From assembly GCA_030272155.1 (NCBI GenBank), contig CP126193.1, positions 5,208,001-5,272,000 of the forward strand: a stretch of 64,000 nucleotides of DNA, in the 5' to 3' direction. Positions 1 through 36,408 of the stretch are shown piece after piece (position 1 is the first letter of the stretch; every line of letters begins with the position of its first letter). Source of the stretch: Tetradesmus obliquus (Eukaryota > Chlorophyta > Chlorophyceae > Sphaeropleales > Scenedesmaceae). The translations under genes and the position numbers were made by a program. The notes below the pieces were generated by a model, which did not search any database, was not told the DNA's origin, and was given only the letters and a program-made list of their open reading frames with translations.

Positions 1-2010
1 AACCGGCGCGGCGCATCGAAGGCCGCTGCGCTTATTTTCGTCTGTCAGTCCTAGGCATGTGAGGGCCTAACATGCTTGGTCATGGAACGTCCGGGATAAA
101 ATCGTCCAGTAGGAATTTTAGCCGGCCAGTGAGTTTCCAGTGGCGGTCCATAGACAACCTTGCCAACCCGCATCCTGCCCCCAGGACATTCGTACGGCTT
201 CAAATGTGATAAATCAGCATTTTACAAAGAGATATAACAATGAATAAACTTTCACGAAGCACACCTAACACATTTCCATAATGGGCCACGAGGCGGGCCT
301 GAGTGAAAATTCAACCGGCGCGGCGCATCGAAGGCCGCTGCGCTTATTTTCGTCTGTCAGTCCTAGGCATGTGAGGGCCTAACATGCTTGGTCATGGAAC
401 GTCCGGGATAAAACCCGGGTTTCTTGCTTCAAAAAAAAAAAAAAAAAATAAAAAAATAAAAAAATAAAACGTCCGGGATAAAATCGTCCAGTAGGAATTT
501 TAGCCGGCCAGTGAGTTTCCAGTGGCGGTCCACAGACAACCTTGCCAACCCGCATCCTGCCCCCAGGACATTCGTACGGCTTATAATTTAATAAATCAAC
601 ATTTTACAAAGAGATATATCAATGAATAAACTTTCACGAAGCACACCGCACATTTCCATAATGGGCCACGAGGCGGGCCCGAGTGAAAATTCAACCGGCG
701 CGGCGCATTGAAGGCCGCTGCGCTTATTTCCGTATGTCAGTCCTAGGCATGTGAGGGCCTAACATGCTTGGTCATAGAACGTCCGGGATAAAATCGTCCA
801 GTAGGAATTTTAGCCGGCCAGTGAGTTTCCAGTGGCGGTCCACAGACAACCTTGCCAACCCGCATCCTGCCCCCAGGACATTCGTACGGCTTATAATTTG
901 ATAAATCAACATTTTACAAAGAGATATAACAATGAATAAACTTTCACGAAGCACACCTAACACATTTCCATAATGGGCCACGAGGCGGGCCTGAGTGAAA
1001 ATTCAACCGGCGCGGCGCATCGAAGGCCGCTGCGCTTATTTTCGTCTGTCAGTCCTAGGCATGTGAGGGCCTAACATGCTTGGTCATGGAACGTCCGGGA
1101 TAAAACCCGGGTTTCTTGCTTCAAAAAAAAAAAAAAAAAAAAAAAAAACGTCCGGGATAAAATCGTCCAGTAGGAATTTTAGCCGGCCAGTGAGTTTCCA
1201 GTGGCGGTCCACAGACAACCTTGCCAACCCGCATCCTGCCCCCAGGACATTCGTACGGCTTATAATTTAATAAATCAACATTTTACAAAGAGATATATCA
1301 ATGAATAAACTTTCACGAAGCACACCGCACATTTCCATAATGGGCCACGAGGCGGGCCCGAGTGAAAATTCAACCGGCGCGGCGCATTGAAGGCCGCTGC
1401 GCTTATTTCCGTATGTCAGTCCTAGGCATGTGAGGGCCTAACATGCTTGGTCGTAGAACGTCCGGGATAAAATCGTCCAGTAGGAATTTTAGCCGGCCAG
1501 TGAGTTTCCAGTGGCGGTCCACAGACAACCTTGCCAACCCGCATCCTGCCCCCAGGACATTCGTACGGCTTATAATTTGATAAATCAACATTTTACAAAG
1601 AGATATAACAATGAATAAACTTTCACGAAGCACACCTAACACATTTCCATAATGGGCCACGAGGCGGGCCTGAGTGAAAATTCAACCGGCGCGGCGCATC
1701 GAAGGCCGCTGCGCTTATTTTCGTCTGTCAGTCCTAGGCATGTGAGGGCCTAACATGCTTGGTCATGGAACGTCCGGGATAAAATCGTCCAGTAGGAATT
1801 TTAGCCGGCCAGTGAGTTTCCAGTGGCGGTCCACAGACAACCTTGCCAACCCGCATCCTGCCCCCAGGACATTCGTACGGCTTATAATTTAATAAATCAA
1901 CATTTTACAAAGAGATATATCAATGAATAAACTTTCACGAAGCACACCGCACATTTCCATAATGGGCCACGAGGCGGGCCCGAGTGAAAATTCAACCGGC
2001 GCGGCGCATT

Positions 2011-2266
2011 ATTTTTTTTTTTTTTTTTTTTTTTTGAAGCAAGAAAGTTACAAGGGCTGACCTACATAACTGTGCACTTGCTCCACAAAAAGATCCATTG
2101 AGAGAGTGAGGCAACCTGTTCCGCACTCACCCCACAGGTCTCTTGTACCAAGAGACGCTGTCACACGATCATGCAGACAGCCCCGTGCGGGGCAGCCCCG
2201 AAAGGCATCCAGGACCTGACCGAGTGCCCAGACTCCACTAAAATCACAGTTACGCAATGACGTCCT
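2011..2266 (-). mobile_element. 5'-truncated LINE 3'-end copy with 13-bp target duplication
   Basis: A 256-bp insert in a satellite monomer. On the plus strand it begins with a T-run, followed by gaagcaagaaagttacaag and the reverse complement of a 3' UTR-like sequence. It is bounded by ggcgcggcgcatt at 1998-2010 and 2267-2279, a perfect target-site duplication. The antisense poly(A) and direct repeats are the marks of target-primed reverse transcription. The 5' end stops inside sequence that continues upstream in the larger LINE block at 11148-13140, so this is a truncated LINE copy. A LINE-mobilised SINE with the same 3' end is the main alternative. Confidence 0.85.
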
Positions 2267-2379
2267 GGCGCGGCGCATTGAAGGCCGCTGCGCTTATTTC
2301 CGTATGTCAGTCCTAGGCATGTGAGGGCCTAACATGCTTGGTCATAGAACGTCCGGGATAAAACCCGGGTTTCTTGCTT

Positions 2380-2412
<33 letters not shown>

Positions 2413-2617
2413 GTCCGGGATAAAATCGTCCAGTAGGAATTTTAGCCGGCCAGTGAGTTTCCAGTGGCGGTCCACAGACAACCTTGCCAACCCGCATCCT
2501 GCCCCCAGGACATTCGTACGGCTTATAATTTGATAAATCAACATTTTACAAAGAGATATAACAATGAATAAACTTTCACGAAGCACACCTAACACATTTC
2601 CATAATGGGCCACGAGG

Positions 2618-4541
2618 AAAATAAAAATAAAAATGGGCCACGAGGCGGGCCTGAGTGAAAATTCAACCGGCGCGGCGCATCGAAGGCCGCTGCGCTTATT
2701 TTCGTATGTCAGTCCTAGGCATGTGAGGGCCTAACATGCTTGGTCATGGAACGTCCGGGATAAAATCGTCCAGTAGGAATTTTAGCCGGCCAGTGAGTTT
2801 CCAGTGGCGGTCCACAGACAACCTTGCCAACCCGCATCCTGCCCCCAGGACATTCGTACGGCTTATAATTTGATAAATCAACATTTTATATATATAACAA
2901 TGAATAAACTTTCACGAAGCACACCGCACATTTCCATAATGGGCCGCGAGGCGGGCCCGAGTGAAAATTCAACCGGCGCGGCGCATCGAAGGCCGCTGCG
3001 CTTATTTCCGTATGTCAGTCCTAGGCATGTGAGGGCCTAACATGCTTGGTCATCCGGGAACGTCCGGGATAAAATCGTCCAGCAGGAATTTTAGCCGGCC
3101 AGTGAGTTTCCAGTGGCGGTCCACAGACAACCTTGCCAACCCGCATCCTGCCCCCAGGACATTCGTACGGCTTATAATTTGATAAATCAACATTTTACAA
3201 AGAGATATGACAATGAATAAACTTTCACGAAGCGCACCTAGCACATTTCTATAATGGGCCACGAGGCGGGCCTGAGTGAAAATTCAACCGGCGCGGCGCA
3301 TCGAAGGCCGCTGCGCTTATTTTCGTCTGTCAGTCCTAGGCATGTGAGGGCCTAACATGCTTGGTCATGGAACGTCCGGGATAAAATCGTCCAGTAGGAA
3401 TTTTAGCCGGCCAGTGAGTTTCCAGTGGCGGTCCATAGACAACCTTGCCAACCCGCATCCTGCCCCCAGGACATTCGTACGGCTTCAAATGTGATAAATC
3501 AGCATTTTACAAAGAGATATAACAATGAATAAACTTTCACGAAGCACACCTAACACATTTCCATAATGGGCCACGAGGCTTCAAAAAAAAAAAAATGGGC
3601 CACGAGGCGGGCCTGTGTGAAAATTCAACCGGCGCGGCGCATCGAAGGCCGCTGCGCTTATTTTCGTATGTCAGTCCTAGGCATGTGAGGGCCTAACATG
3701 CTTGGTCATGGAACGTCCGGGATAAAATCGTCCAGTAGGAATTTTAGCCGGCCAGTGAGTTTCCAGTGGCGGTCCACAGACAACCTTGCCAACCCGCATC
3801 CTGCCCCCAGGACATTCGTACGGCTTATAATTTGATAAATCAGCATTTTACAAAGAGATATAACAATGAATAAACTTTCACGAAGCACACCTAACACATT
3901 TCCATAATGGGCCACGAGGCGGGCCTGAGTGAAAATTCAACCGGCGCGGCGCATCGAAGGCCGCTGCGCTTATTTTCGTCTGTCAGTCCTAGGCATGTGA
4001 GGGCCTAACATGCTTGGTCATGGAACGTCCGGGATAAAATCGTCCAGTAGGAATTTTAGCCGGCCAGTGAGTTTCCAGTGGCGGTCCATAGACAACCTTG
4101 CCAACCCGCATCCTGCCCCCAGGACATTCGTACGGTTTATAATTTAATAAATCAACATTTTACAAAGAGATATATCAATGAATAAACTTTCACGAAGCAC
4201 ACCGCACATTTCCATAATGGGCCACGAGGCGGGCCCGAGTGAAAATTCAACCGGCGCGGCGCATTGAAGGCCGCTGCGCTTATTTCCGTATGTCAGTCCT
4301 AGGCATGTGAGGGCCTAACATGCTTGGTCATAGAACGTCCGGGATAAAATCGTCCAGTAGGAATTTTAGCCGGCCAGTGAGTTTCCAGTGGCGGTCCACA
4401 GACAACCTTGCCAACCCGCATCCTGCCCCCAGGACATTCGTACGGCTTATAATTTGATAAATCAACATTTTACAAAGAGATATAACAATGAATAAACTTT
4501 CACGAAGCACACCTAACACATTTCCATAATGGGCCACGAGG
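2618..4541. repeat. Representative 1,924-bp higher-order repeat (six monomers)
   Basis: One full unit measured from one A-rich stub (aaaataaaaataaaa) to the next. In order it holds that stub, a tatatata monomer, a tcatccgggaacg monomer, a plain monomer, the cttc-poly(A) stub at 3579, and further plain monomers. Distances between successive A-rich stubs are 1924, 2027, 1924, 1654, 5046, 2263, 1923, 2967, 1923, 1968, 1924, 1650 and 1583 bp. The 1,924 unit therefore recurs, interleaved with versions that carry the longer cccggg-type poly(A) insert or have gained or lost monomers. This pattern is expected from unequal exchange that copies multi-monomer blocks. Confidence 0.9.
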
Positions 4542-6017
4542 AAAATAAAAATAAAAATGGGCCACGAGGCGGGCCTGAGTGAAAATTCAACCGGCGCGGC
4601 GCATCGAAGGCCGCTGCGCTTATTTTCGTATGTCAGTCCTAGGCATGTGAGGGCCTAACATGCTTGGTCATGGAACGTCCGGGATAAAATCGTCCAGTAG
4701 GAATTTTAGCCGGCCAGTGAGTTTCCAGTGGCGGTCCACAGACAACCTTGCCAACCCGCATCCTGCCCCCAGGACATTCGTACGGCTTATAATTTGATAA
4801 ATCAACATTTTATATATATAACAATGAATAAACTTTCACGAAGCACACCGCACATTTCCATAATGGGCCGCGAGGCGGGCCCGAGTGAAAATTCAACCGG
4901 CGCGGCGCATCGAAGGCCGCTGCGCTTATTTCCGTATGTCAGTCCTAGGCATGTGAGGGCCTAACATGCTTGGTCATCCGGGAACGTCCGGGATAAAATC
5001 GTCCAGCAGGAATTTTAGCCGGCCAGTGAGTTTCCAGTGGCGGTCCACAGACAACCTTGCCAACCCGCATCCTGCCCCCAGGACATTCGTACGGCTTATA
5101 ATTTGATAAATCAACATTTTACAAAGAGATATGACAATGAATAAACTTTCACGAAGCGCACCTAGCACATTTCTATAATGGGCCACGAGGCGGGCCTGAG
5201 TGAAAATTCAACCGGCGCGGCGCATCGAAGGCCGCTGCGCTTATTTTCGTCTGTCAGTCCTAGGCATGTGAGGGCCTAACATGCTTGGTCATGGAACGTC
5301 CGGGATAAAACCCGGGTTTCTTGCTTCAAAAAAAAAAAATAAAAAAAAAAAAAAAAAAAAAAAAACGTCCGGGATAAAATCGTCCAGTAGGAATTTTAGC
5401 CGGCCAGTGAGTTTCCAGTGGCGGTCCACAGACAACCTTGCCAACCCGCATCCTGCCCCCAGGACATTCGTACGGCTTATAATTTAATAAATCAACATTT
5501 TACAAAGAGATATATCAATGAATAAACTTTCACGAAGCACACCGCACATTTCCATAATGGGCCACGAGGCGGGCCCGAGTGAAAATTCAACCGGCGCGGC
5601 GCATTGAAGGCCGCTGCGCTTATTTCCGTATGTCAGTCCTAGGCATGTGAGGGCCTAACATGCTTGGTCATAGAACGTCCGGGATAAAATCGTCCAGTAG
5701 GAATTTTAGCCGGCCAGTGAGTTTCCAGTGGCGGTCCACAGACAACCTTGCCAACCCGCATCCTGCCCCCAGGACATTCGTACGGCTTATAATTTGATAA
5801 ATCAACATTTTACAAAGAGATATAACAATGAATAAACTTTCACGAAGCACACCTAACACATTTCCATAATGGGCCACGAGGCGGGCCTGAGTGAAAATTC
5901 AACCGGCGCGGCGCATCGAAGGCCGCTGCGCTTATTTTCGTCTGTCAGTCCTAGGCATGTGAGGGCCTAACATGCTTGGTCATGGAACGTCCGGGATAAA
6001 ACCCGGGTTTCTTGCTT

Positions 6018-6057
<40 letters not shown>

Positions 6058-9000
6058 GGGATAAAATCGTCCAGTAGGAATTTTAGCCGGCCAGTGAGTT
6101 TCCAGTGGCGGTCCACAGACAACCTTGCCAACCCGCATCCTGCCCCCAGGACATTCGTACGGCTTATAATTTAATAAATCAACATTTTACAAAGAGATAT
6201 ATCAATGAATAAACTTTCACGAAGCACACCGCACATTTCCATAATGGGCCACGAGGCGGGCCCGAGTGAAAATTCAACCGGCGCGGCGCATTGAAGGCCG
6301 CTGCGCTTATTTCCGTATGTCAGTCCTAGGCATGTGAGGGCCTAACATGCTTGGTCATAGAACGTCCGGGATAAAATCGTCCAGTAGGAATTTTAGCCGG
6401 CCAGTGAGTTTCCAGTGGCGGTCCACAGACAACCTTGCCAACCCGCATCCTGCCCCCAGGACATTCGTACGGCTTATAATTTGATAAATCAACATTTTAC
6501 AGAGAGATATAACAATGAATAAACTTTCACGAAGCACACCTAACACATTTCCATAATGGGCCACGAGGAAAATAAAAATAAAAATGGGCCACGAGGCGGG
6601 CCTGAGTGAAAATTCAACCGGCGCGGCGCATCGAAGGCCGTTGCGCTTATTTTCGTATGTCAGTCCTAGGCATGTGAGGGCCTAACATGCTTGGTCATGG
6701 AACGTCCGGGATAAAATCGTCCAGTAGGAATTTTAGCCGGCCAGTGAGTTTCCAGTGGCGGTCCACAGACAACCTTGCCAACCCGCATCCTGCCCCCAGG
6801 ACATTCGTACGGCTTATAATTTGATAAATCAACATTTTATATATATAACAATGAATAAACTTTCACGAAGCACACCGCACATTTCCATAATGGGCCGCGA
6901 GGCGGGCCCGAGTGAAAATTCAACCGGCGCGGCGCATCGAAGGCCGCTGCGCTTATTTCCGTATGTCAGTCCTAGGCATGTGAGGGCCTAACATGCTTGG
7001 TCATCCGGGAACGTCCGGGATAAAATCGTCCAGCAGGAATTTTAGCCGGCCAGTGAGTTTCCAGTGGCGGTCCACAGACAACCTTGCCAACCCGCATCCT
7101 GCCCCCAGGACATTCGTACGGCTTATAATTTGATAAATCAACATTTTACAAAGAGATATGACAATGAATAAACTTTCACGAAGCGCACCTAGCACATTTC
7201 TATAATGGGCCACGAGGCGGGCCTGAGTGAAAATTCAACCGGCGCGGCGCATCGAAGGCCGCTGCGCTTATTTTCGTCTGTCAGTCCTAGGCATGTGAGG
7301 GCCTAACATGCTTGGTCATGGAACGTCCGGGATAAAATCGTCCAGTAGGAATTTTAGCCGGCCAGTGAGTTTCCAGTGGCGGTCCATAGACAACCTTGCC
7401 AACCCGCATCCTGCCCCCAGGACATTCGTACGGCTTCAAATGTGATAAATCAGCATTTTACAAAGAGATATAACAATGAATAAACTTTCACGAAGCACAC
7501 CTAACACATTTCCATAATGGGCCACGAGGCTTCAAAAAAAAAAAAATGGGCCACGAGGCGGGCCTGTGTGAAAATTCAACCGGCGCGGCGCATCGAAGGC
7601 CGCTGCGCTTATTTTCGTATGTCAGTCCTAGGCATGTGAGGGCCTAACATGCTTGGTCATGGAACGTCCGGGATAAAATCGTCCAGTAGGAATTTTAGCC
7701 GGCCAGTGAGTTTCCAGTGGCGGTCCACAGACAACCTTGCCAACCCGCATCCTGCCCCCAGGACATTCGTACGGCTTATAATTTGATAAATCAGCATTTT
7801 ACAAAGAGATATAACAATGAATAAACTTTCACGAAGCACACCTAACACATTTCCATAATGGGCCACGAGGCGGGCCTGAGTGAAAATTCAACCGGCGCGG
7901 CGCATCGAAGGCCGCTGCGCTTATTTTCGTCTGTCAGTCCTAGGCATGTGAGGGCCTAACATGCTTGGTCATGGAACGTCCGGGATAAAATCGTCCAGTA
8001 GGAATTTTAGCCGGCCAGTGAGTTTCCAGTGGCGGTCCACAGACAACCTTGCCAACCCGCATCCTGCCCCCAGGACATTCGTACGGTTTATAATTTAATA
8101 AATCAACATTTTACAAAGAGATATATCAATGAATAAACTTTCACGAAGCACACCGCACATTTCCATAATGGGCCACGAGGCGGGCCCGAGTGAAAATTCA
8201 ACCGGCGCGGCGCATTGAAGGCCGCTGCGCTTATTTCCGTATGTCAGTCCTAGGCATGTGAGGGCCTAACATGCTTGGTCATAGAACGTCCGGGATAAAA
8301 TCGTCCAGTAGGAATTTTAGCCGGCCAGTGAGTTTCCAGTGGCGGTCCACAGACAACCTTGCCAACCCGCATCCTGCCCCCAGGACATTCGTACGGCTTA
8401 TAATTTGATAAATCAACATTTTACAAAGAGATATAACAATGAATAAACTTTCACGAAGCACACCTAACACATTTCCATAATGGGCCACGAGGAAAATAAA
8501 AATAAAAATGGGCCACGAGGCGGGCCTGAGTGAAAATTCAACCGGCGCGGCGCATCGAAGGCCGCTGCGCTTATTTTCGTATGTCAGTCCTAGGCATGTG
8601 AGGGCCTAACATGCTTGGTCATGGAACGTCCGGGATAAAATCGTCCAGTAGGAATTTTAGCCGGCCAGTGAGTTTCCAGTGGCGGTCCACAGACAACCTT
8701 GCCAACCCGCATCCTGCCCCCAGGACATTCGTACGGCTTATAATTTGATAAATCAACATTTTATATATATAACAATGAATAAACATTCACGAAGCACACC
8801 GCACATTTCCATAATGGGCCGCGAGGCGGGCCCGAGTGAAAATTCAACCGGCGCGGCGCATCGAAGGCCGCTGCGCTTATTTCCGTATGTCAGTCCTAGG
8901 CATGTGAGGGCCTAACATGCTTGGTCATCCGGGAACGTCCGGGATAAAATCGTCCAGCAGGAATTTTAGCCGGCCAGTGAGTTTCCAGTGGCGGTCCACA

Positions 9001-9589
9001 GACAACCTTGCCAACCCGCATCCTGCCCCCAGGACATTCGTACGGCTTATAATTTGATAAATCAACATTTTACAAAGAGATATGACAATGAATAAACTTT
9101 CACGAAGCGCACCTAGCACATTTCTATAATGGGCCACGAGGCGGGCCTGAGTGAAAATTCAACCGGCGCGGCGCATCGAAGGCCGCTGCGCTTATTTTCG
9201 TCTGTCAGTCCTAGGCATGTGAGGGCCTAACATGCTTGGTCATGGAACGTCCGGGATAAAATCGTCCAGTAGGAATTTTAGCCGGCCAGTGAGTTTCCAG
9301 TGGCGGTCCATAGACAACCTTGCCAACCCGCATCCTGCCCCCAGGACATTCGTACGGCTTCAAATGTGATAAATCAGCATTTTACAAAGAGATATAACAA
9401 TGAATAAACTTTCACGAAGCACACCTAACACATTTCCATAATGGGCCACGAGGCGGGCCTGAGTGAAAATTCAACCGGCGCGGCGCATCGAAGGCCGCTG
9501 CGCTTATTTTCGTCTGTCAGTCCTAGGCATGTGAGGGCCTAACATGCTTGGTCATGGAACGTCCGGGATAAAACCCGGGTTTCTTGCTT

Positions 9590-9631
<42 letters not shown>

Positions 9632-11607
9632 GTCCGGGATAAAATCGTCCAGTAGGAATTTTAGCCGGCCAGTGAGTTTCCAGTGGCGGTCCACAGACAA
9701 CCTTGCCAACCCGCATCCTGCCCCCAGGACATTCGTACGGCTTATAATTTAATAAATCAACATTTTACAAAGAGATATATCAATGAATAAACTTTCACGA
9801 AGCACACCGCACATTTCCATAATGGGCCACGAGGCGGGCCCGAGTGAAAATTCAACCGGCGCGGCGCATTGAAGGCCGCTGCGCTTATTTCCGTATGTCA
9901 GTCCTAGGCATGTGAGGGCCTAACATGCTTGGTCATAGAACGTCCGGGATAAAATCGTCCAGTAGGAATTTTAGCCGGCCAGTGAGTTTCCAGTGGCGGT
10001 CCACAGACAACCTTGCCAACCCGCATCCTGCCCCCAGGACATTCGTACGGCTTATAATTTAATAAATCAACATTTTACAAAGAGATATAACAATGAATAA
10101 ACTTTCACGAAGCACACCTAACACATTTCCATAATGGGCCACGAGGAAAATAAAAATAAAAATGGGCCACGAGGCGGGCCTGAGTGAAAATTCAACCGGC
10201 GCGGCGCATCGAAGGCCGCTGCGCTTATTTTCGTATGTCAGTCCTAGGCATGTGAGGGCCTAACATGCTTGGTCATGGAACGTCCGGGATAAAATCGTCC
10301 AGTAGGAATTTTAGCCGGCCAGTGAGTTTCCAGTGGCGGTCCACAGACAACCTTGCCAACCCGCATCCTGCCCCCAGGACATTCGTACGGCTTCAAATGT
10401 GATAAATCAACATTTTACAAAGAGATATAACAATGAATAAACTTTCACGAAGCACACCTAACACATTTCCATAATGGGCCACGAGGCGGGCCTGAGTGAA
10501 AATTCAACCGGCGCGGCGCATTGACGGCCGCTGCGCTTATTTCCGTATGTCAGTCCTAGGCATGTGAGGGCCTAACATGCTTGGTCATGGAACGTCCGGG
10601 ATAAAATCGTCCAGTAGGAATTTTAGCCGGCCAGTGAGTTTCCAGTGGCGGTCCACAGACAACCTTGCCAACCCGCATCCTGCCCCCAGGACATTCGTAC
10701 GGCTTATAATTTGATAAATCAGCATTTTACAAAGAGATATAACAATGAATAGACTTTCACGAAGCACACCTAACACATTTCCATAATGGGCCACGAGGCG
10801 GGCCTGAGTGAAAATTCAACCGGCGCGGCGCATCGAAGGCCGCTGCGCTTATTTTCGTCTGTCAGTCCTAGGCATGTGAGGGCCTAACATGCTTGGTCAT
10901 GGAACGTCCGGGATAAAATCGTCCAGTAGGAATTTTAGCCGGCCAGTGAGTTTCCAGTGGCGGTCCACAGACAACCTTGCCAACCCGCATCCTGCCCCCA
11001 GGACATTCGTACGGCTTCAAATGTGATAAATCAGCATTTTACAAAGAGATATAACAAAGAATAAACTTTCACGAAGCACACCTAACACATTTCCATAATG
11101 GGCCACGAGGCGGGCCTGAGTGAAAATTCAACCGGCGCGGCGCATCGAAAAAAAAAAATCACAGTTACGCAATGACGTCCTGTGATGTGTGACAGACCGT
11201 GACTGGCCCATGAAACAAAAGCTGTCCATAGTGTAGCTGTCAGCTATCAATGCATGGTGACTTGCACACCTCTAAAAGCTGCACCTCACAGGCAGCATTA
11301 CGACACACACACACAAGACGCCTATTTATAGGTAACTGATTGTCGACACAGACAATCACCACCTGTCTATTGATAGACTCTCCACTTCATGCAAAGCATA
11401 TCCTGCTATTGACCGAACATACCCCTATGAGACATGTGGCATTATGTAAAAAATGACACCAACACAGACACATATAACCACACACACAAACTTATCAGCA
11501 CATGCCTGCACACATCATCATACTCTGCTACCCACACGCATGCATACATAACGTAACCCAGCCATCAACTTAGCCTTTGCCATTCTATTTTGCAACACAT
11601 CACAACG

Positions 11608-11804
11608 GTCAGGTCCTGGATGCCTTTCGGGGCTGCCCCGCACGGGGCTGTCTGCATGATCGTGTGACAGCGTCTCTTGGTACAAGAGACCTGTGGGGTG
11701 AGTGCGGAACAGGTTGCCTCACTCTCTCAATGGATCTTTTTGTGGAGCAAGTGCAAAGTTATGTAGGTCAGCCCTTGTAACTTTCTTGCTTCAAAAAAAG
11801 AAAC
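11608..11804 (+). mobile_element. Nested LINE 3'-end insertion in LINE block 1
   Basis: A 197-bp copy of the LINE 3' end, opposite in orientation to its host block. It runs from gtcaggtcctgg to cttgcttcaaaaaaagaaac. The 12-bp target duplication cacatcacaacg lies at 11596-11607 and 11805-11816. It is truncated about 60 bp further in than the copy at 2011-2266. Confidence 0.87.
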
Positions 11805-12664
11805 CACATCACAACGAGGAACGACAACCACTACTCCAACGGATGCATTGCATATCCTGCCCGAACCGTCAAAACAGACCACCACGCCACCTATACCCGT
11901 GCCCAACCCATCACTCACATGCCAGCCGTGCCGGCCCGAACCTTGATGCGACCATCTGCGCCCACCCTATACAGGGCTCCCCACTTCTGCCAAAAGTCAA
12001 CAAGTTTGATCTCAGGCGACCTTCCTTGCAGCCATGCAAACGGTATCCCACAACCCAACCTAACATCTACTTCCACCCTATCCCATTCCCTCTGAATTTG
12101 CTGCCGTAGCTCTGCCAGAAACCTGCACGCCACAGCCTTAGCAGCGTATGATGAGCTGCCCGGCTCGCCAGCTGCAAACCGTTGGCTGCCCATGCTGCTG
12201 GTGCTGCTGCTGCTGCTGCTGTTGCTGTTGTCCTCCGCACCGCTGTTGCTGTGGCTCTGCGATTGCAAACCGCTGCCTGCATTGCGGCTGCTGCCGCCAC
12301 CGCTGCCATCCGCACTGGCCACAGTCACGCCAGCCATGCTGCTGCTGCAGCGCACCAACCAAATCGATTCCAGCAGCAGCAGACGCAGCTGCGTTCACAA
12401 CTGCTGCTGCCCTGCTGGCGGCGCCCACACACTGAAGTCATCCAGCAGCAGCAGACGGCTGTTATTAACAGGGACACTGCTGCTGGCTGCACTAGCTGCC
12501 ACACCTGTTGCGCATACCACTGCCACACTGCTGCAGCTATTGGGCACTCCACAAACAAGTGGGTGAGGGTCTCCAGTTGCTGCGGCTGCTGACACTGCTG
12601 TGCTGGGCAGGCAAAGTGAGCCGGCGCGCGCCTGCTGGATGCCAGCATGCGCCGTGCGCCTACC

Positions 12665-12725
12665 TTTTTTTTTTTTTTGAAGCAAGAAAGTTACAAGGGC
12701 TGACCTACATAATTGTGCACTTGCT
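12665..12725 (-). mobile_element. Nested 61-bp LINE tail interrupting the zf-RVT region
   Basis: A 14-base T-run, then gaagcaagaaagttacaag and about 30 further bases of LINE tail. It is flanked by cctacc at 12659-12664 and 12726-12731. It falls in the zf-RVT coding region just after LLHAGVKVG, and its short target duplication repeats the codons for VG on the far side. The host LINE was therefore already in place when this copy landed. Confidence 0.8.
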
Positions 12726-15700
12726 CCTACCTTCACTCCTGCATGCAGAAGCCGCCAGCCAAACACTCGCAGCCGCCTCGGCAGCTGGGTGTCTTTCAGC
12801 CTCTGATAACTCGCCACCCAGCGGTGCTGCCTGGCATTGACAGCACCCATGGATTGGGTGATCGGGTCCAGTAGATCATTGTGTGCTGGGCAGCTGATGC
12901 GCTGCTGTTGCTGCTCCTGTTGCTGCCGTGACCACTGCTGCTGCTGTTGCTGCGCGCTGTCTTGGCAGCTCCCGCTCCCTGGACGGATCCATCCAGGACG
13001 CATGGTAGGCTGCCATCATAGCTGCATCGCTAAACCGCTGGCTGTCACTGCTGCTGCTGCTGCTGCGATTGCCAGGCGCCTCGCTACTTTGCTGCATTTG
13101 CTGGAAAGACCGTTTCTGAGCTGCCTCCATCTCCTGCAAGCGGTCCACAGACAACCTTGCCAACCCGTATCCTGCCCCCAGGACATTCGTACGGCTTCAA
13201 ATTTGATAAATCAACATTTTACAAAGAGATATAACAATGAATAGACTTTCACGAAGCACACCTAGCACATTTCCATAATGGGCCACGAGGCGGGCCTGAG
13301 TGAAAATTCAACCGGCGCGGCGCATCGAAGGCCGCTGCGCTTATTTTCGTATGTCAGTCCTAGGCATGTGAGGGCCTAACATGCTTGGTCATGGAACGTC
13401 CGGGATAAAATCGTCCAGTAGGAATTTTAGCCGGCCAGTGAGTTTCCAGTGGCGGTCCACAGACAACCTTGCCAACCCGCATCCTGCCCCCAGGACATTC
13501 GTACGGCTTATAATTTGATAAATCAACATTTTACAAAGAGATATGACAATGAATAAACTTTCACGAAGCGCACCTAGCACATTTCTATAATGGGCCACGA
13601 GGCGGGCCTGAGTGAAAATTCAACCGGCGCGGCGCATCGAAGGCCGCTGCGCTTATTTTCGTCTGTCAGTCCTAGGCATGTGAGGGCCTAACATGCTTGG
13701 TCATGGAACGTCCGGGATAAAATCGTCCAGTAGGAATTTTAGCCGGCCAGTGAGTTTCCAGTGGCGGTCCATAGACAACCTTGCCAACCCGCATCCTGCC
13801 CCCAGGACATTCGTACGGCTTCAAATGTGATAAATCAACATTTTACAAAGAGATATAACAATGAATAAACTTTCACGAAGCACACCTAACACATTTCCAT
13901 AATGGGCCACGAGGCTTCAAAAAAAAAAAAATGGGCCACGAGGCGGGCCTGTGTGAAAATTCAACCGGCGCGGCGCATCGAAGGCCGCTGCGCTTATTTT
14001 CGTATGTCAGTCCTAGGCATGTGAGGGCCTAACATGCTTGGTCATCCGGGAACGTCCGGGATAAAATCGTCCAGCAGGAATTTTAGCCGGCCAGTGAGTT
14101 TCCAGTGGCGGTCCACAGACAACCTTGCCAACCCGCATCCTGCCCCCAGGACATTCGTACGGCTTATAATTTGATAAATCAACATTTTACAAAGAGATAT
14201 GACAATGAATAAACTTTCACGAAGCGCACCTAGCACATTTCTATAATGGGCCACGAGGCGGGCCTGAGTGAAAATTCAACCGGCGCGGCGCATCGAAGGC
14301 CGCTGCGCTTATTTTCGTCTGTCAGTCCTAGGCATGTGAGGGCCTAACATGCTTGGTCATGGAACGTCCGGGATAAAATCGTCCAGTAGGAATTTTAGCC
14401 GGCCAGTGAGTTTCCAGTGGCGGTCCACAGACAACCTTGCCAACCCGCATCCTGCCCCCAGGACATTCGTACGGCTTATAATTTGATAAATCAGCATTTT
14501 ACAAAGAGATATAACAATGAATAAACTTTCACGAAGCACACCTAACACATTTCCATAATGGGCCACGAGGCGGGCCTGAGTGAAAATTCAACCGGCGCGG
14601 CGCATCGAAGGCCGCTGCGCTTATTTTCGTCTGTCAGTCCTAGGCATGTGAGGGCCTAACATGCTTGGTCATGGAACGTCCGGGATAAAATCGTCCAGTA
14701 GGAATTTTAGCCGGCCAGTGAGTTTCCAGTGGCGGTCCACAGACAACCTTGCCAACCCGCATCCTGCCCCCAGGACATTCGTACGGTTTATAATTTAATA
14801 AATCAACATTTTACAAAGAGATATATCAATGAATAAACTTTCACGAAGCACACCGCACATTTCCATAATGGGCCACGAGGCGGGCCCGAGTGAAAATTCA
14901 ACCGGCGCGGCGCATTGAAGGCCGCTGCGCTTATTTCCGTATGTCAGTCCTAGGCATGTGAGGGCCTAACATGCTTGGTCATAGAACGTCCGGGATAAAA
15001 TCGTCCAGTAGGAATTTTAGCCGGCCAGTGAGTTTCCAGTGGCGGTCCACAGACAACCTTGCCAACCCGCATCCTGCCCCCAGGACATTCGTACGGCTTA
15101 TAATTTGATAAATCAACATTTTACAAAGAGATATAACAATGAATAAACTTTCACGAAGCACACCTAACACATTTCCATAATGGGCCACGAGGAAAATAAA
15201 AATAAAAATGGGCCACGAGGCGGGCCTGAGTGAAAATTCAACCGGCGCGGCGCATCGAAGGCCGCTGCGCTTATTTTCGTATGTCAGTCCTAGGCATATG
15301 AGGGCCTAACATGCTTGGTCATGGAACGTCCGGGATAAAATCGTCCAGTAGGAATTTTAGCCGGCCAGTGAGTTTCCAGTGGCGGTCCACAGACAACCTT
15401 GCCAACCCGCATCCTGCCCCCAGGACATTCGTACGGCTTATAATTTGATAAATCAACATTTTATATATATAACAATGAATAAACTTTCACGAAGCACACC
15501 GCACATTTCCATAATGGGCCGCGAGGCGGGCCCGAGTGAAAATTCAACCGGCGCGGCGCATCGAAGGCCGCTGCGCTTATTTCCGTATGTCAGTCCTAGG
15601 CATGTGAGGGCCTAACATGCTTGGTCATCCGGGAACGTCCGGGATAAAATCGTCCAGCAGGAATTTTAGCCGGCCAGTGAGTTTCCAGTGGCGGTCCACA

Positions 15701-20475: not shown

Positions 20476-20515
<40 letters not shown>

Positions 20516-21166: not shown

Positions 21167-21208
<42 letters not shown>

Positions 21209-25677: not shown

Positions 25678-25721
<44 letters not shown>

Positions 25722-29257: not shown

Positions 29258-29297
<40 letters not shown>

Positions 29298-31433
29298 CCG
29301 GGATAAAATCGTCCAGTAGGAATTTTAGCCGGCCAGTGAGTTTCCAGTGGCGGTCCACAGACAACCTTGCCAACCCGCATCCTGCCCCCAGGACATTCGT
29401 ACGGCTTATAATTTAATAAATCAACATTTTACAAAGAGATATATCAATGAATAAACTTTCACGAAGCACACCGCACATTTCCATAATGGGCCACGAGGCG
29501 GGCCCGAGTGAAAATTCAACCGGCGCGGCGCATTGAAGGCCGCTGCGCTTATTTCCGTATGTCAGTCCTAGGCATGTGAGGGCCTAACATGCTTGGTCAT
29601 AGAACGTCCGGGATAAAATCGTCCAGTAGGAATTTTAGCCGGCCAGTGAGTTTCCAGTGGCGGTCCACAGACAACCTTGCCAACCCGCATCCTGCCCCCA
29701 GGACATTCGTACGGCTTATAATTTGATAAATCAACATTTTACAAAGAGATATAACAATGAATAAACTTTCACGAAGCACACCTAACACATTTCCATAATG
29801 GGCCACGAGGAAAATAAAAATAAAAATGGGCCACGAGGCGGGCCTGAGTGAAAATTCAACCGGCGCGGCGCATCGAAGGCCGCTGCGCTTATTTTCGTAT
29901 GTCAGTCCTAGGCATGTGAGGGCCTAACATGCTTGGTCATGGAACGTCCGGGATAAAATCGTCCAGTAGGAATTTTAGCCGGCCAGTGAGTTTCCAGTGG
30001 CGGTCCACAGACAACCTTGCCAACCCGCATCCTGCCCCCAGGACATTCGTACGGCTTATAATTTGATAAATCAACATTTTATATATATAACAATGAATAA
30101 TCTTTCACGAAGCACACCGCACATTTCCATAATGGGCCGCGAGGCGGGCCCGAGTGAAAATTCAACCGGCGCGGCGCATCGAAGGCCGCTGCGCTTATTT
30201 CCGTATGTCAGTCCTAGGCATGTGAGGGCCTAACATGCTTGGTCATCCGGGAACGTCCGGGATAAAATCGTCCAGCAGGAATTTTAGCCGGCCAGTGAGT
30301 TTCCAGTGGCGGTCCACAGACAACCTTGCCAACCCGCATCCTGCCCCCAGGACATTCGTACGGCTTATAATTTGATAAATCAACATTTTACAAAGAGATA
30401 TGACAATGAATAAACTTTCACGAAGCGCACCTAGCACATTTCTATAATGGGCCACGAGGCGGGCCTGAGTGAAAATTCAACTGGCGCGGCGCATCGAAGG
30501 CCGCTGCGCTTATTTTCGTCTGTCAGTCCTAGGCATGTGAGGGCCTAACATGCTTGGTCATGGAACGTCCGGGATAAAATCGTCCAGTAGGAATTTTAGC
30601 CGGCCAGTGAGTTTCCAGTGGCGGTCCATAGACAACCTTGCCAACCCGCATCCTGCCCCCAGGACATTCGTACGGCTTCAAATGTGATAAATCAGCATTT
30701 TACAAAGAGATATAACAATGAATAAACTTTCACGAAGCACACCTAACACATTTCCATAATGGGCCACGAGGCGGGCCTGAGTGAAAATTCAACCGGCGCG
30801 GCGCATCGAAGGCCGCTGCGCTTATTTTCGTCTGTCAGTCCTAGGCATGTGAGGGCCTAACATGCTTGGTCATGGAACGTCCGGGATAAAATCGTCCAGT
30901 AGGAATTTTAGCCGGCCAGTGAGTTTCCAGTGGCGGTCCACAGACAACCTTGCCAACCCGCATCCTGCCCCCAGGACATTCGTACGGCTTATAATTTAAT
31001 AAATCAACATTTTACAAAGAGATATATCAATGAATAGACTTTCACGAAGCACACCGCACATTTCCATAATGGGCCACGAGGCGGGCCCGAGTGAAAATTC
31101 AACCGGCGCGGCGCATTGAAGGCCGCTGCGCTTATTTCCGTATGTCAGTCCTAGGCATGTGAGGGCTTAACATGCTTGGTCATAGAACGTCCGGGATAAA
31201 ATCGTCCAGTAGGAATTTTAGCCGGCCAGTGAGTTTCCAGTGGCGGTCCACAGACAACCTTGCCAACCCGCATCCTGCCCCCAGGACATTCGTACGGCTT
31301 ATAATTTGATAAATCAACATTTTACAAAGAGATATAACAATGAATAAACTTTCACGAAGCACACCTAACACATTTCCATAATGGGCCACGAGGAAAAAAA
31401 AAAATAAAAATGGGCCACGAGGCGGGCCTGTGT

Positions 31434-31522
31434 TTTTTTTTTTTTTTTTTTTTTTTTTGAAGCAAGAAAGTTACAAGGGCTGACCTACATAACTGTGCAC
31501 TTGCTCCACAAAAAGATCCATT
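31434..31522 (-). mobile_element. 5'-truncated LINE 3'-end copy with 12-bp target duplication
   Basis: An 89-bp insert: T-run, then gaagcaagaaagttacaag and about 45 bp more of the LINE tail, ending at agatccatt. The target duplication gcgggcctgtgt lies at 31422-31433 and 31523-31534. The target carries the cctgtg variant of the monomer. No other copy of this exact insertion is seen, so it postdates spread of the higher-order repeats. Confidence 0.87.
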
Positions 31523-33294
31523 GCGGGCCTGTGTGAAAATTCAACCGGCGCGGCGCATCGAAGGCCGCTGCGCTTATTTTCGTATGTCAGTCCTAGGCAT
31601 GTGAGGGCCTAACATGCTTGGTCATGGAACGTCCGGGATAAAATCGTCCAGTAGGAATTTTAGCCGGCCAGTGAGTTTCCAGTGGCGGTCCACAGACAAC
31701 CTTGCCAACCCGCATCCTGCCCCCAGGACATTCGTACGGCTTATAATTTGATAAATCAACATTTTATATATATAACAATGAATAAACTTTCACGAAGCAC
31801 ACCGCACATTTCCATAATGGGCCGCGAGGCGGGCCCGAGTGAAAATTCAACCGGCGCGGCGCATTGAAGGCCGCTGCGCTTATTTCCGTATGTCAGTCCT
31901 AGGCATGTGAGGGCCTCACATGCTTGGTCATCCGGGAACGTCCGGGATAAAATCGTCCAGCAGGAATTTTAGCCGGCCAGTGAGTTTCCAGTGGCGGTCC
32001 ACAGACAACCTTGCCAACCCGCATCCTGCCCCCAGGACATTTGTACGGCTTCAAATGTGATAAATCAACATTTTACAAAGAGATATAACAATGAATAAAC
32101 TTTCACGAAGCACACCTAGCACATTTCCATAATGGGCCACGAGGCGGGCCTGAGTGAAAATTCAACCGGCGCGGCGCATTGACGGCCGCTGCGCTTATTT
32201 CCGTATGTCAGTCCTAGGCATGTGAGGGCCTAACATGCTTGGTCATGGAACGTCCGGGATAAAATCGTCCAGTAGGAATTTTAGCCGGCCAGTGAGTTTC
32301 CAGTGGCGGTCCACAGACAACCTTGCCAACCCGCATCCTGCCCCCAGGACATTCGCACAGCTTATAATTTAATAAATCAACATTTTACAAAGAGATATAA
32401 CAATAAATAAACTTTCACGAAGCACACCTAGCACATTTCCATAATGGGCCACGAGGCTTCAAAAAAAAAAAATGGGCCACGAGGCGGGCCTGTGTGAAAA
32501 TTCAACCGGCGCGGCGCATCGAAGGCCGCTGCGCTTATTTTCGTCTGTCAGTCCTAGGCATGTGAGGGCCTAACATGCTTGGTCATGGAACGTCCGGGAT
32601 AAAATCGTCCAGTAGGAATTTTAGCCGGCCAGTGAGTTTCCAGTGGCGGTCCACAGACAACCTTGCCAACCCGCATCCTGCCCCCAGGACATTCGTACGG
32701 CTTATAATTTGATAAATCAGCATTTTACAAAGAGATATAACAAAGAATAAACTTTCACGAAGCACACCTAACACATTTCCATAATGGGCCACGAGGCGGG
32801 CCTGAGTGAAAATTCAACCGGCGCGGCGCATCGAAAAAAAAAAAATCACAGTTACGCAATGACGTCCTGTGATGTGTGACAGACCGTGACTGGCCCATGA
32901 AACAAAAGCTGTCCATAGTGTAGCTGTCAGCTATCAATGCATGGTGACTTGCACACCTCTAAAAGCTGCACCTCACAGGCAGCATTACGACACACACACA
33001 CAAGACGCCTATTTATAGGTAACTGATTGTCGACACAGACAATCACCACCTGTCTATTGATAGACTCTCCACTTCATGCAAAGCATATCCTGCTATTGAC
33101 CGAACATACCCCTATGAGACATGTGGCATTATGTAAAAAATGACACCAACACAGACACATATAACCACACACACAAACTTATCAGCACATGCCTGCACAC
33201 ATCATCATACTCTGCTACCCACACGCATGCATACATAACGTAACCCAGCCATCAACTTAGCCTTTGCCATTCTATTTTGCAACACATCACAACG

Positions 33295-33491
33295 GTCAGG
33301 TCCTGGATGCCTTTCGGGGCTGCCCCGCACGGGGCTGTCTGCATGATCGTGTGACAGCGTCTCTTGGTACAAGAGACCTGTGGGGTGAGTGCGGAACAGG
33401 TTGCCTCACTCTCTCAATGGATCTTTTTGTGGAGCAAGTGCAAAGTTATGTAGGTCAGCCCTTGTAACTTTCTTGCTTCAAAAAAAGAAAC
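33295..33491 (+). mobile_element. Nested LINE 3'-end insertion in LINE block 2
   Basis: Counterpart of 11608-11804, with the same target duplication cacatcacaacg at 33283-33294 and 33492-33503. It was inherited with the duplicated block, not inserted independently. Confidence 0.85.
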
Positions 33492-34351
33492 CACATCACA
33501 ACGAGGAACGACAACCACTACTCCAACGGATGCATTGCATATCCTGCCCGAACCGTCAAAACAGACCACCACGCCACCTATACCCGTGCCCAACCCATCA
33601 CTCACATGCCAGCCGTGCCGGCCCGAACCTTGATGCGACCATCTGCGCCCACCCTATACAGGGCTCCCCACTTCTGCCAAAAGTCAACAAGTTTGATCTC
33701 AGGCGACCTTCCTTGCAGCCATGCAAACGGTATCCCACAACCCAACCTAACATCTACTTCCACCCTATCCCATTCCCTCTGAATTTGCTGCCGTAGCTCT
33801 GCCAGAAACCTGCACGCCACAGCCTTAGCAGCGTATGATGAGCTGCCCGGCTCGCCAGCTGCAAACCGTTGGCTGCCCATGCTGCTGGTGCTGCTGCTGC
33901 TGCTGCTGTTGCTGTTGTCCTCCGCACCGCTGTTGCTGTGGCTCTGCGATTGCAAACCGCTGCCTGCATTGCGGCTGCTGCCGCCACCGCTGCCATCCGC
34001 ACTGGCCACAGTCACGCCAGCCATGCTGCTGCTGCAGCGCACCAACCAAATCGATTCCAGCAGCAGCAGACGCAGCTGCGTTCACAACTGCTGCTGCCCT
34101 GCTGGCGGCGCCCACACACTGAAGTCATCCAGCAGCAGCAGACGGCTGTTATTAACAGGGACACTGCTGCTGGCTGCACTAGCTGCCACACCTGTTGCGC
34201 ATACCACTGCCACACTGCTGCAGCTATTGGGCACTCCACAAACAAGTGGGTGAGGGTCTCCAGTTGCTGCGGCTGCTGACACTGCTGTGCTGGGCAGGCA
34301 AAGTGAGCCGGCGCGCGCCTGCTGGATGCCAGCATGCGCCGTGCGCCTACC

Positions 34352-34411
34352 TTTTTTTTTTTTTGAAGCAAGAAAGTTACAAGGGCTGACCTACATAACT
34401 GTGCACTTGCT
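34352..34411 (-). mobile_element. Nested LINE tail in the zf-RVT region of block 2
   Basis: Counterpart of 12665-12725, with 13 T's instead of 14 and cctacc at 34346-34351 and 34412-34417. Confidence 0.8.
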
Positions 34412-35879
34412 CCTACCTTCACTCCTGCATGCAGAAGCCGCCAGCCAAACACTCGCAGCCGCCTCGGCAGCTGGGTGTCTTTCAGCCTCTGATAACTCGC
34501 CACCCAGCGGTGCTGCCTGGCATTGACAGCACCCATGGATTGGGTGATCGGGTCCAGTAGATCATTGTGTGCTGGGCAGCTGATGCGCTGCTGTTGCTGC
34601 TCCTGTTGCTGCCGTGACCACTGCTGCTGCTGTTGCTGCGCGCTGTCTTGGCAGCTCCCGCTCCCTGGACGGATCCATCCAGGACGCATGGTAGGCTGCC
34701 ATCATAGCTGCATCGCTAAACCGCTGGCTGTCACTGCTGCTGCTGCTGCTGCGATTGCCAGGCGCCTCGCTACTTTGCTGCATTTGCTGGAAAGACCGTT
34801 TCTGAGCTGCCTCCATCTCCTGCAAGCGGTCCACAGACAACCTTGCCAACCCGTATCCTGCCCCCAGGACATTCGTACGGCTTCAAATTTGATAAATCAA
34901 CATTTTACAAAGAGATATAACAATGAATAGACTTTCACGAAGCACACCTAGCACATTTCCATAATGGGCCACGAGGCGGGCCTGAGTGAAAATTCAACCG
35001 GCGCGGCGCATCGAAGGCCGCTGCGCTTATTTTCGTATGTCAGTCCTAGGCATGTGAGGGCCTAACATGCTTGGTCATGGAACGTCCGGGATAAAATCGT
35101 CCAGTAGGAATTTTAGCCGGCCAGTGAGTTTCCAGTGGCGGTCCACAGACAACCTTGCCAACCCGCATCCTGCCCCCAGGACATTCGTACGGCTTATAAT
35201 TTGATAAATCAACATTTTACAAAGAGATATAACAATGAATAAACTTTCACGAAGCACACCTAGCACATTTCCATAATGGGCCACGAGGCGGGCCTGAGTG
35301 AAAATTCAACCGGCGCGGCGCATCGAAGGCCGCTGCGCTTATTTTCGTATGTCAGTCCTAGGCATGTGAGGGCCTAACATGCTTGGTCATGGAACGTCCG
35401 GGATAAAATCGTCCAGTAGGAATTTTAGCCGGCCAGTGAGTTTCCAGTGGCGGTCCACAGACAACCTTGCCAACCCGCATCCTGCCCCCAGGACATTCGT
35501 ACGGCTTCAAATGTGATAAATCAACATTTTACAAAGAGATATAACAATGAATAAACTTTCACGAAGCACACCGCACATTTCCATAATGGGCTACGAGGCG
35601 GGCATGAGTGAAAATTCAACCGGCGCGGCGCATCAAAGGCCGCTGCGCTTATTTCCGTATGTCAGTCCTAGGCATGTGAGGGCCTAACATGCTTGGTCAT
35701 GGAACGTCCGGGATAAAATCGTCCAGTAGGAATTTTAGCCGGCCAGTGAGTTTCCAGTGGCGGTCCACAGACAACCTTGCCAACCCGCATCCTGCCCCCA
35801 GGACATTCGTACGGCTTCAAATGTGATAAATCAACATTTTACAAAGAGATATAACAATGAATAAACTTTCACGAAGCAC

Positions 35880-36408
35880 ACCTAGCACATTTTCATGATG
35901 GGCCACGAGGCGGGCCTGAGTGAAAATTCAACCGGCGCGGCGCATCGAAGGCCGCTGCGCTTATTTTCGTATGTCAGTCCTAGGCATGTGAGGGCCTAAC
36001 ATGCTTGGTCATGGAAACGTTCGGGATAAAATCGTCCAGCAGGAATTTTAGCCGGCCAGTGAGTTTCCAGTGGCGGTTCACAGACAACCTTGCCAACCCG
36101 CATCCTGCCCCCAGGACATTCGTACGGCTTGAATTTGGTCAATCAACATTTCACAGAGAGATATAACAATGAATAAACTTTCACGAAGCACACCTAGCAC
36201 ATTTCCATAATGGGCCACGAGGCGGGCCGGAGTGAAAATTCAATCGGCGTGGCGCATCGAAGGCCGCTGCGCTTATCTTCGTATGTCAGTAAAAAAAATA
36301 TTTTTTTCGTATGTCAGTCCTAGGCATGTGAGGGCCTAACATGCTTGGTCATAGGCCGCTGCGCTTATTTTCGTATGTCAGTCCTAGGCATGTGAGGGCC
36401 TAACATGC
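35880..36408. repeat. Degenerate right edge of the satellite array
   Basis: The last monomers accumulate private changes (tttcatgatggg, gaaacgttcggg, cttgaatttggtcaatc, tcaatcggcgtggcg). They then break up into partial pieces: gtatgtcagtcctaggcatg and aggccgctgcgctta reappear out of register at 36303-36408. Edge monomers of satellites typically escape homogenisation. A 13-bp direct repeat ttcgtatgtcagt (36278-36290 and 36306-36318) brackets a small A/T palindrome. Confidence 0.85.

Follow-up and report, generated by a model that had tools for sequence, protein, structure and literature searches.

A satellite array on the contig here called C3 of Tetradesmus obliquus is probably the satellite core of the C3 regional centromere, and it appears to belong to a set, with one such locus on most likely every chromosome of this Scenedesmaceae alga. 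This reading is drawn from the genome sequence (GCA_030272155.1; 104.66 Mb in 17 contigs), in which we analyzed the window C3:5,208,001-5,272,000, a stretch of 64,000 nucleotides, together with homologous loci on the other contigs. All satellite and LINE counts are lower bounds; 194 of the 364 matches of one satellite search had no assigned place.

The C3 array and its higher-order structure

The array occupied 82.9 kb (C3:5,161,512-5,244,380) and consisted of 243 monomers in a single orientation. Monomers of ~312 bp started in the window from position 19 to position 36,352, the 99th being partial (Table 1). TRF returned rows of 312-bp period, with a single 340-bp row, from 1,147 to 36,290, and non-satellite DNA split these rows at ~11.15-13.14 and ~32.84-34.83 kb. 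The 83,150-base C3 block was composed of 76,182 bases of satellite, 5,443 of LINE-only sequence and 1,525 of other DNA. GC content was 49% in the array and 60% in its right flank, and tRNA and Rfam scans of the 64-kb window gave 0 hits.

Table 1. Features of the 64-kb window (positions are those of the window)
Feature	Position	Strand	Details
Right 44% of the C3 satellite array	1..36408	+	99 monomer starts; basic unit 306-315 bp; one orientation
Micro LINE insert, CCCGGG + TTTCTTGCTTC + A-tail	1106..1146	+	16-bp target duplication AACGTCCGGGATAAAA at 1090-1105 and 1147-1162
Repeats of the CCCGGG + TTTCTTGCTTC insert			Tails begin at 431, 2381, 5328, 6019, 9591, 16291, 20477, 21168, 25679, 29259
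5'-truncated antisense LINE 3' end	2011..2266	-	Matches LINE sequence of the C10 locus at 95% identity; target duplication GGCGCGGCGCATT at 1998-2010 and 2267-2279 (13 bp by eye, 12 by script)
A-rich insert AAAATAAAAATAAA	2618..2631	+	Target duplication AATGGGCCACGAGG at 2604-2617 and 2632-2645; yields 340-bp monomer
Micro LINE insert, CTTC + A-tail	3579..3593	+	14-bp target duplication AATGGGCCACGAGG; yields 341-bp (sometimes 340-bp) monomer
Repeats of the CTTC + A-tail insert			A-runs at 7534, 13919, 18421, 23311, 27202, 32461
In-phase 1,924-bp six-monomer unit	6294..8217	+	Further in-phase starts at 17181, 22071, 25962
2-kb composite	11150..13137	-	Antisense LINE piece (ORF2 C-terminal part + 3'UTR) with two more LINE 3' ends nested inside
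5'-truncated antisense LINE 3' end	31434..31522	-	12-bp target duplication GCGGGCCTGTGT at 31422-31433 and 31523-31534, read by eye (script overlap 36)
Second copy of the 2-kb composite	32837-34825
Older antisense LINE 3' end	36409..36631	-	79-80% identical; right edge of the array
ORF with exon of chloroplast-type cysteine desulfurase (NifS/SufS)	37031..37726	-	Lies shortly beyond the array's right edge

The spacing series 340-306-315-341-312-310 (sum 1,924) was found 10 times, in any phase, among the 242 intervals of the full C3 array (five of them in the window), compared with a mean of 0.14 in 500 shuffles of the intervals. Monomer identity by lag peaked at 6, 12 and 18; the values at lag 6 (0.9593) and lag 12 (0.9577) exceeded the maximum of 200 order shuffles (0.9550), and that at lag 18 (0.9538) did not. 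On C1 the lag signal was weak (0.9533 vs a shuffle maximum of 0.9507). Nine in-phase units on C3 were 0.998-1.000 identical to one another (36 pairs), and the monomers inside them were 0.956-0.990 identical, with a mean of 0.973, when gap columns were left out; in one unit with inserts scored as differences, within-unit identity was 0.865-0.968. The C3 satellite is thus a higher-order repeat, its units being more alike than their own monomers, and this structure is real but shallow, because the monomers of a unit stay so similar once gap columns are removed.

An earlier note on this DNA had described a young array of more than 36 kb of ~311-bp monomers with multi-monomer higher-order repeats. 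The tandem monomers were confirmed, and the extent was too small, since the array runs on leftwards beyond the window. The spacing series, lag values and unit identity bear out the higher-order organization, its depth falls short in that the units differ little inside, and the near-identity of the in-phase units bears out its youth.

LINE insertions into satellite monomers

Two of the six monomers in each C3 unit carried 28-29 extra bases, made up of an A-rich tail and a 14-bp target duplication, and one of these two tails included the last bases of the LINE. The 340/341-bp length therefore results from a micro-insertion, along with the target duplication it made, in a ~312-bp monomer. For the AAAATAAAAATAAA insert (35 copies in the C3 array) we only infer a LINE origin, because it holds no LINE-specific base and has its target site in common with the CTTC insert. 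The note had reported that satellite and LINE occur together; our results go further, in that the LINE is inserted in satellite monomers and its tails serve as markers of the higher-order units.

Target duplications were scored by overlap of the flanking monomer coordinates, since repetition within the array confounded exact-word searches. Across the C3 and C1 arrays, 245 of the 257 non-satellite inserts showed an overlap of 12-17 bp, at nine sites, and 12 did not. The inserts at these sites were 5'-truncated ends of at most ~0.5 kb, and many were nothing but a tail. Within the 2-kb insert at 11150-13137 one LINE piece is nested in another; a twin-primed inversion was ruled out there by alignment and by a 12-bp duplication read by eye, and a search for a target duplication at the outer ends of this composite found none.

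The LINE has two ORFs, and ORF2 contains Exo_endo_phos (5e-12) and RVT_1 (1.1e-28) domains, with zf-RVT below the cut-off. With an AP endonuclease, a reverse transcriptase (RT), a poly-A tail and 12-17-bp target-site duplications, it is L1-like. The joint occurrence of monomer and LINE, and the transposon origin proposed for plant satellites (PMC11005252), might suggest that the 312-bp monomer is an old LINE piece, e.g. a tandem 5'UTR, and the locus simply a Zepp cluster. However, when the window was compared with a full-length LINE locus on C10, monomer matches were confined to the left end (bases 3-118) and the right-end satellite, with none in ORF1, ORF2 or the 3'UTR among matches starting up to base 9,400; the monomer was therefore rejected as a part of this LINE. 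A relative with the monomer in its UTR was likewise not seen among the LINE copies of this genome, and we consider this origin highly improbable.

Distribution of the LINE and the satellite among chromosomes

All 41 RT matches at E<=1e-100 fell on 13 contigs, in a single cluster per contig, and none outside these clusters (best 86 of 172 candidates scored), and all 42 ORF2-end DNA matches lay in or within ~60 kb of RT clusters (best 40 of 225 candidates scored). On C1, C3 and C7, truncated LINE 3'-end copies were found inside satellite. Among the matches listed, the LINE occupied one locus on each of 16 of the 17 contigs; C13 had no match to LINE or satellite. On C12 and C17 the LINE was inserted into its own copies. 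Thus, it behaves like Zepp, being nested, 5'-truncated and present as one cluster per chromosome, with none elsewhere among the candidates scored and C13 without a match.

Homologous satellites were located on 10 of the 17 contigs, at one place each, among the matches listed. Each locus has its chromosome's own version of a single ~300-322-bp satellite, and the versions form three superfamilies 53-61% alike. Words of a conserved box (see below), taken from C7/C17 monomers, gave matches that as predicted were all at LINE clusters: C5 had all 100 listed of 663 matches (76 of 99 intervals were 311 bp), C17 had 70 of 70 (42 of 69 intervals were 322 bp), C11 at least 88 and C12 at least 11. Reversed-pattern controls gave 0 matches each. 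A satellite search aimed at C13 placed matches on C5, C11 and C17 only, among those listed. Seven satellite blocks lay 0-22 kb from an RT copy, for which a rough product of chance probabilities was 7e-11 (allowing 60 kb and assuming the lengths of two contigs). Relative positions, computed for 11 loci (C1, C3, C5, C7, C8, C10, C11, C12, C14, C15 and C17), were all internal, at 0.29-0.78 along the contig.

The earlier note had offered one array per chromosome with CENH3 enrichment as support for a centromere, and a location at chromosome ends or at many dispersed sites as evidence against it. The 11 loci with a relative position were all internal, and no scatter over dispersed sites was seen among the matches listed. 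As far as these matches reach, they point towards one array per chromosome, with a single satellite place on 10 contigs and a single LINE locus on 16; no match was listed on C13, and no satellite was located on six contigs with a LINE locus.

Those six (C2, C4, C8, C9, C15 and C16) had LINE clusters without a located satellite among the matches listed, and therefore the satellite may not be needed. This would suit a pericentromeric or other heterochromatic satellite, whose blocks adjoin the true centromere without CENH3 and in which the LINE builds up where insertions are tolerated. However, the C3 block is only 83 kb, with a gene <1 kb from its right edge, and therefore a separate core would hardly fit on that side; mapped algal centromeres, moreover, look like one compact locus per chromosome in the accounts available (PMC8226300, PMC3446292). 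We regard this explanation as unlikely, though the most credible of those set against a centromeric core. A selfish LINE without a centromere role, with a sequence preference for the satellite and for its own copies, on arrays that spread between chromosomes by exchange, would explain insertion into both targets and the use of monomer place 172-186 on C3 and C1, on opposite strands. Its nine sites nevertheless fall at about eight distinct monomer positions, so its site preference is loose, and a landing pad alone leaves unexplained why there is one locus per chromosome with satellite superfamilies so dissimilar; we give it little credence.

A conserved box and a proposed history of the arrays

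A ~30-bp box, AGTGGCGGT..GnCAnCCnTGCCAACC (also bounded as AGTGGCGGT..TGCCAACC), was recognisable in all three superfamilies, and 20 of its 30 columns were invariant over six chromosome types (P=0.004). At widths of 15, 20, 30 and 40, P was 0.017, 0.034, 0.004 and 0.017; without C17, whose box has ten extra bases in the middle, it was 0.43, 0.73, 0.06 and 0.03, and other monomer stretches were then about as conserved. The box is a candidate protein-binding site, for which this conservation is suggestive only.

Returning to the centromeric reading, we propose that regional centromeres of chromosome-specific satellite were invaded by a Zepp-like LINE, which would be attracted by centromeric chromatin. 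CENH3 nucleosomes would sit on the satellite, whose monomer length of 311-312 bp approximates two nucleosomal repeats; the box might be bound by a protein. The many copies of the same insert show that tails were duplicated along with the monomers next to them, presumably via unequal exchange or conversion; on C3, six-monomer blocks with two tails make up the higher-order unit.

More tentatively, and with somewhat less than even confidence, these may be truly satellite-based chlorophyte centromeres, in which an old satellite (superfamilies ~55-60% alike) has a constrained ~30-bp box for a sequence-specific centromere protein, and a centromere-confined LINE labels, and perhaps seeds, new higher-order repeats with its truncated tails. 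If so, green algae, a lineage that also has Zepp-type LINE centromeres, would have evolved satellite centromeres separately from land plants and animals.

Two H3-like candidates were noted at C1:917238 and C1:919543, known by position only.

Comparison with known systems

Among green algae, transposon-enriched centromeres were previously described in Chlorella, Coccomyxa and Chlamydomonas; in Auxenochlorella the candidates are short and AT-rich (PMC12636532). Two Chlorella genomes are presented as having centromeres without satellites (PMC11005252), and low tandem-repeat abundance is given for seven basal plants including green algae (PMC4053949). Literature searches for a centromeric satellite in Scenedesmaceae returned no report among the best-ranked titles and abstracts. 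The candidate centromeres found here, often satellite and LINE together, look different from the transposon-only ones described for other green algae.

Zepp clusters in Coccomyxa subellipsoidea and ZeppL-1_cRei in Chlamydomonas are described as LINE arrays (PMC3446292, PMC8226300, PMC10030371). Like these, the LINE here forms a localized, mostly internal cluster per chromosome that was not seen elsewhere, with nested and 5'-truncated copies; the likeness is one of arrangement. Unlike in those arrays, LINE sequence on C3 is a minority (5 kb LINE-only) beside 76 kb of satellite. The note's contrast with Zepp algae is softer than claimed because the LINE behaves in a Zepp-like way and nests in itself. 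A chlorophyte with chromosome-specific satellites beside a Zepp-like LINE would let a change from LINE-only to satellite centromeres, or the reverse, be asked about directly.

Sunflower centromeres combine HaCEN-LINE with a 187-bp chromosome-specific tandem repeat, and CENH3 was shown there (PMC4628103). The pairing of a centromere-enriched LINE with a chromosome-specific tandem repeat is similar here, in centromere candidates known from sequence; the sunflower repeat is on one chromosome pair, whereas homologous satellites are on 10 contigs here, and, unlike in sunflower, the C3 higher-order units carry LINE tails. In poplar, the Celine LINE is concentrated, and possibly nested, in every chromosome's centromere, with CENH3 shown; CENH3 domains average 633 kb, and the satellite probes Pt7 and Pt20 mark only a few centromeres (PMC11288735). 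The LINE here is likewise nested and concentrated at candidate centromeres.

Alpha-satellite and plant higher-order satellites have multi-monomer units nearly identical to each other, and the alpha satellite monomers within a unit are much less alike than 96-99%. Higher-order satellite arrays occur in human and in plants (PMC11005252). The T. obliquus arrays resemble these in their near-identical multi-monomer units and a possible conserved box, and differ in having 311-322-bp monomers that are 96-99% alike within a unit, lengths of tens to ~100 kb, and a phase marked by retrotransposon tails. Such tails and the target duplications around them provide natural labels for the growth of higher-order repeats.

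Structure of the satellite array

The genome searched comprised 104,662,953 bases in 17 contigs (C1 to C17), in which the window occupies C3:5,208,001-5,272,000. A telomere-to-telomere study of Scenedesmus obliquus UTEX 3031 (Biondi et al. 2024, referenced in PMC12636532) probably describes the same assembly. For Tetradesmus obliquus assembly GCA_030272155.1, one publication lists 104.70 Mb, 17 contigs and a GC content of 56.5% (PMC12571836).

Within the window, TRF returned rows of 312-bp period (one of 340 bp) from 1,147 to 36,290 with two breaks, and we placed 99 monomer starts, the first at 19 and the last at 36,352. The array extends leftward to C3:5,161,512, for a total of 243 monomers over 82.9 kb, and carries 241 plus-strand and no minus-strand copies of the box, a ~30-bp conserved stretch of the monomer. 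In the 83,150-base block, 76,182 bases aligned to the satellite, 5,443 only to the LINE (a two-ORF retrotransposon found at the same loci) and 1,525 to neither. GC content was 49% in the array versus 60% on either flank. The right border of the array is marked by a LINE 3' end (36409-36631) that is older, sharing 79-80% identity with the C10 LINE, so that the border may predate the inner inserts. The ORF just to its right had 'Cysteine desulfurase 2, chloroplastic' as its best solved-structure match.

Mean monomer identity on C3 peaked at lags of 6, 12 and 18 monomers. The values at lags 6 (0.9593) and 12 (0.9577) exceeded the maximum of 200 order shuffles (0.9550), whereas that at lag 18 (0.9538) did not. 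The six-spacing series of the 1,924-bp unit occurred 10 times in the 242 C3 intervals versus 0.14 in shuffles, and nine in-phase units were 0.998-1.000 identical in all 36 pairs, while the monomers inside them were 0.956-0.990 identical, gap columns excluded. The C1 array presented a much weaker case than C3, with a best lag of 7 (0.9533 versus a shuffle maximum of 0.9507). The higher-order repeat on C3 is real but shallow and, as the earlier note had stated, alternates with variant blocks.

The LINE and its tails in the satellite

In the full LINE copy on C10, ORF1 (703 aa) had no Pfam match, and ORF2 (1,795 aa) matched Exo_endo_phos (5e-12) and RVT_1 (1.1e-28), with zf-RVT only below the cut-off. 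Satellite-monomer matches flank this LINE at both ends of the segment, outside the ORFs and the 3'UTR; the match table of the window against the segment covers rows starting up to base 9,400.

LINE tails are marks of the higher-order unit on C3. The 340-/341-bp monomers consist of a ~312-bp monomer plus AAAATAAAAATAAA or CTTC-A(n) plus 14 repeated bases, and a third insert type consists of CCCGGG-TTTCTTGCTTC and an A-rich tail, with 16 bases repeated. TTTCTTGCTTC is the terminal part of the LINE 3'UTR. The purely A-rich insert contains no LINE-specific bases; its assignment to the LINE rests on the insertion site and the duplication, both of which it has in common with the CTTC insert.

We placed both flanks of 257 inserts (79 on C3, 178 on C1), ranging in length from 12 b to 4 kb, on the monomer, two longer C1 segments being left out. 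The flanks overlapped by 12-17 bases in 245 of them, which occupy three C3 sites and six C1 sites; the remaining 12 were composites, the array edge and the insert at 31,434, whose overlap was 12 bases by eye versus 36 by script. Single sites recur, one 83 times on C1 and another 26 times on C3, and these copies are best explained as single insertions multiplied along with the array. Some site preference is possible, since two different tails on C3, and on C1 a tail in the opposite strand, all sit at monomer place 172-186.

Genome distribution

For the RT protein, 86 of the 172 candidates were scored, and the 41 matches listed, all at E<=1e-100, lie on 13 contigs. ORF2-end DNA gave 42 matches (40 scored of 225 candidates), all in or near the RT clusters, and the LINE 3' end gave 45 (40 scored of 1,018 candidates), adding C1, C3 and C7. 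C13 had no match among the RT, ORF2-end and LINE 3'-end matches listed. The C12 and C17 locus sequence examined consisted of LINE 3' ends nested in one another.

Locations of LINE, satellite and second RT family features
Feature	Location	Basis or content
Full LINE copy	C10:3,214,001-3,224,000	ORF1, ORF2, poly-A tails
Longer LINE 3'UTR copies ending in TTTCTTGCTTC	window 2,011-2,266; 11,606-11,802; 31,434-31,522	Sequence comparison
RT clusters	C2, C4, C5, C6, C8, C9, C10, C11, C12, C14, C15, C16, C17	One per contig, spans 0-110 kb
Satellite	C1, C3	Sequence analysed in full
Satellite	C7, C10, C14	Sequence analysed in pieces
Satellite	C6, C11, C12	Position
Satellite	C5	Position and 701 bases of sequence
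Satellite	C17	Position and one monomer sequence
Second RT family series	C8:1465647-1537094; C1:4961566-5003550; C1:7979495-8055957	

Among the matches listed, satellite spacing was 311 bp in 76/99 intervals on C5, 322 bp in 42/69 on C17, and on C12 312 bp in three of ten and 624 bp in two. CACCCGTGCCAACCTGV had 357+306 genome matches and CACCCGTGCCAACCCV 105+277, with 100 of 100 matches listed on C5 and C6, respectively. The refined box word had 62+302, of which 170 were placed (C5 1, C11 88, C12 11, C17 70); a further 145 reverse and 49 forward matches would fall on C12 or later if the listing follows contig order, as it seems to. Reversed-pattern controls gave no matches in all five box searches and in one further search.

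The C1 satellite is oriented opposite to that of C3 (254/255 box copies), and C1:4410001-4550000 holds 37.6 kb of LINE-only sequence in 140 kb, flanks included, far above C3, with six insertion sites. A second RT family (RVT_1 positions 5/6-194) forms copy series in a few places, with members roughly 4-24 kb apart; one series lies about 0.4 Mb from the C1 satellite/LINE locus. Two contigs have RT elements no more than about 4 kb from one of their termini, at the start of C10 (C10:3620-4102) and towards the end of C7 at 6,124,559 (C7:6120259-6120741); these are perhaps subtelomeric retrotransposons.

Satellite families and the conserved box

Grouping of the C1, C3, C5, C7, C10, C14 and C17 monomers gave group I (C1, C3, C10, C14; 82-94% alike between chromosomes), group II (C5, C7; 84% alike) and C17, which stands alone. 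Likeness between groups was 53-61%, gap columns excluded. With six chromosome types aligned, 99/311 columns were invariant, and the densest 30-column window, AGTGGCGGT..TGCCAACC, held 20 of them (permutation P=0.004; 0.017 for both the 15- and the 40-column width, 0.034 for 20 columns). Without C17, whose box contains ten extra bases, P was 0.43, 0.73, 0.06 and 0.03 at widths 15, 20, 30 and 40. Judged from these alignments, the conserved box is suggestive.

Comparison with known centromeres

Two neighbouring H3-like stretches at C1:917238-917498 and C1:919543-919809, apparently exons, scored 122 bits versus 160-165 for ten H3 copies; they are possible candidates for one or more CENH3 genes.

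Mapped algal centromeres follow the pattern of a single compact internal locus on each chromosome, which is described as a cluster of Zepp or ZeppL elements (PMC3446292, PMC8226300, PMC10030371). The loci of the present alga resemble this pattern among the matches listed, and carry satellite too, on at least ten contigs. Excerpts of two reports give green-algal centromeres as transposon or short AT-rich sequence, without satellites (PMC11005252, PMC12636532). The combination of LINE and satellite has known precedents, since a centromeric LINE with a chromosome-specific tandem repeat is described in part of a sunflower study (PMC4628103) and a centromeric LINE in part of one on poplar (PMC11288735).
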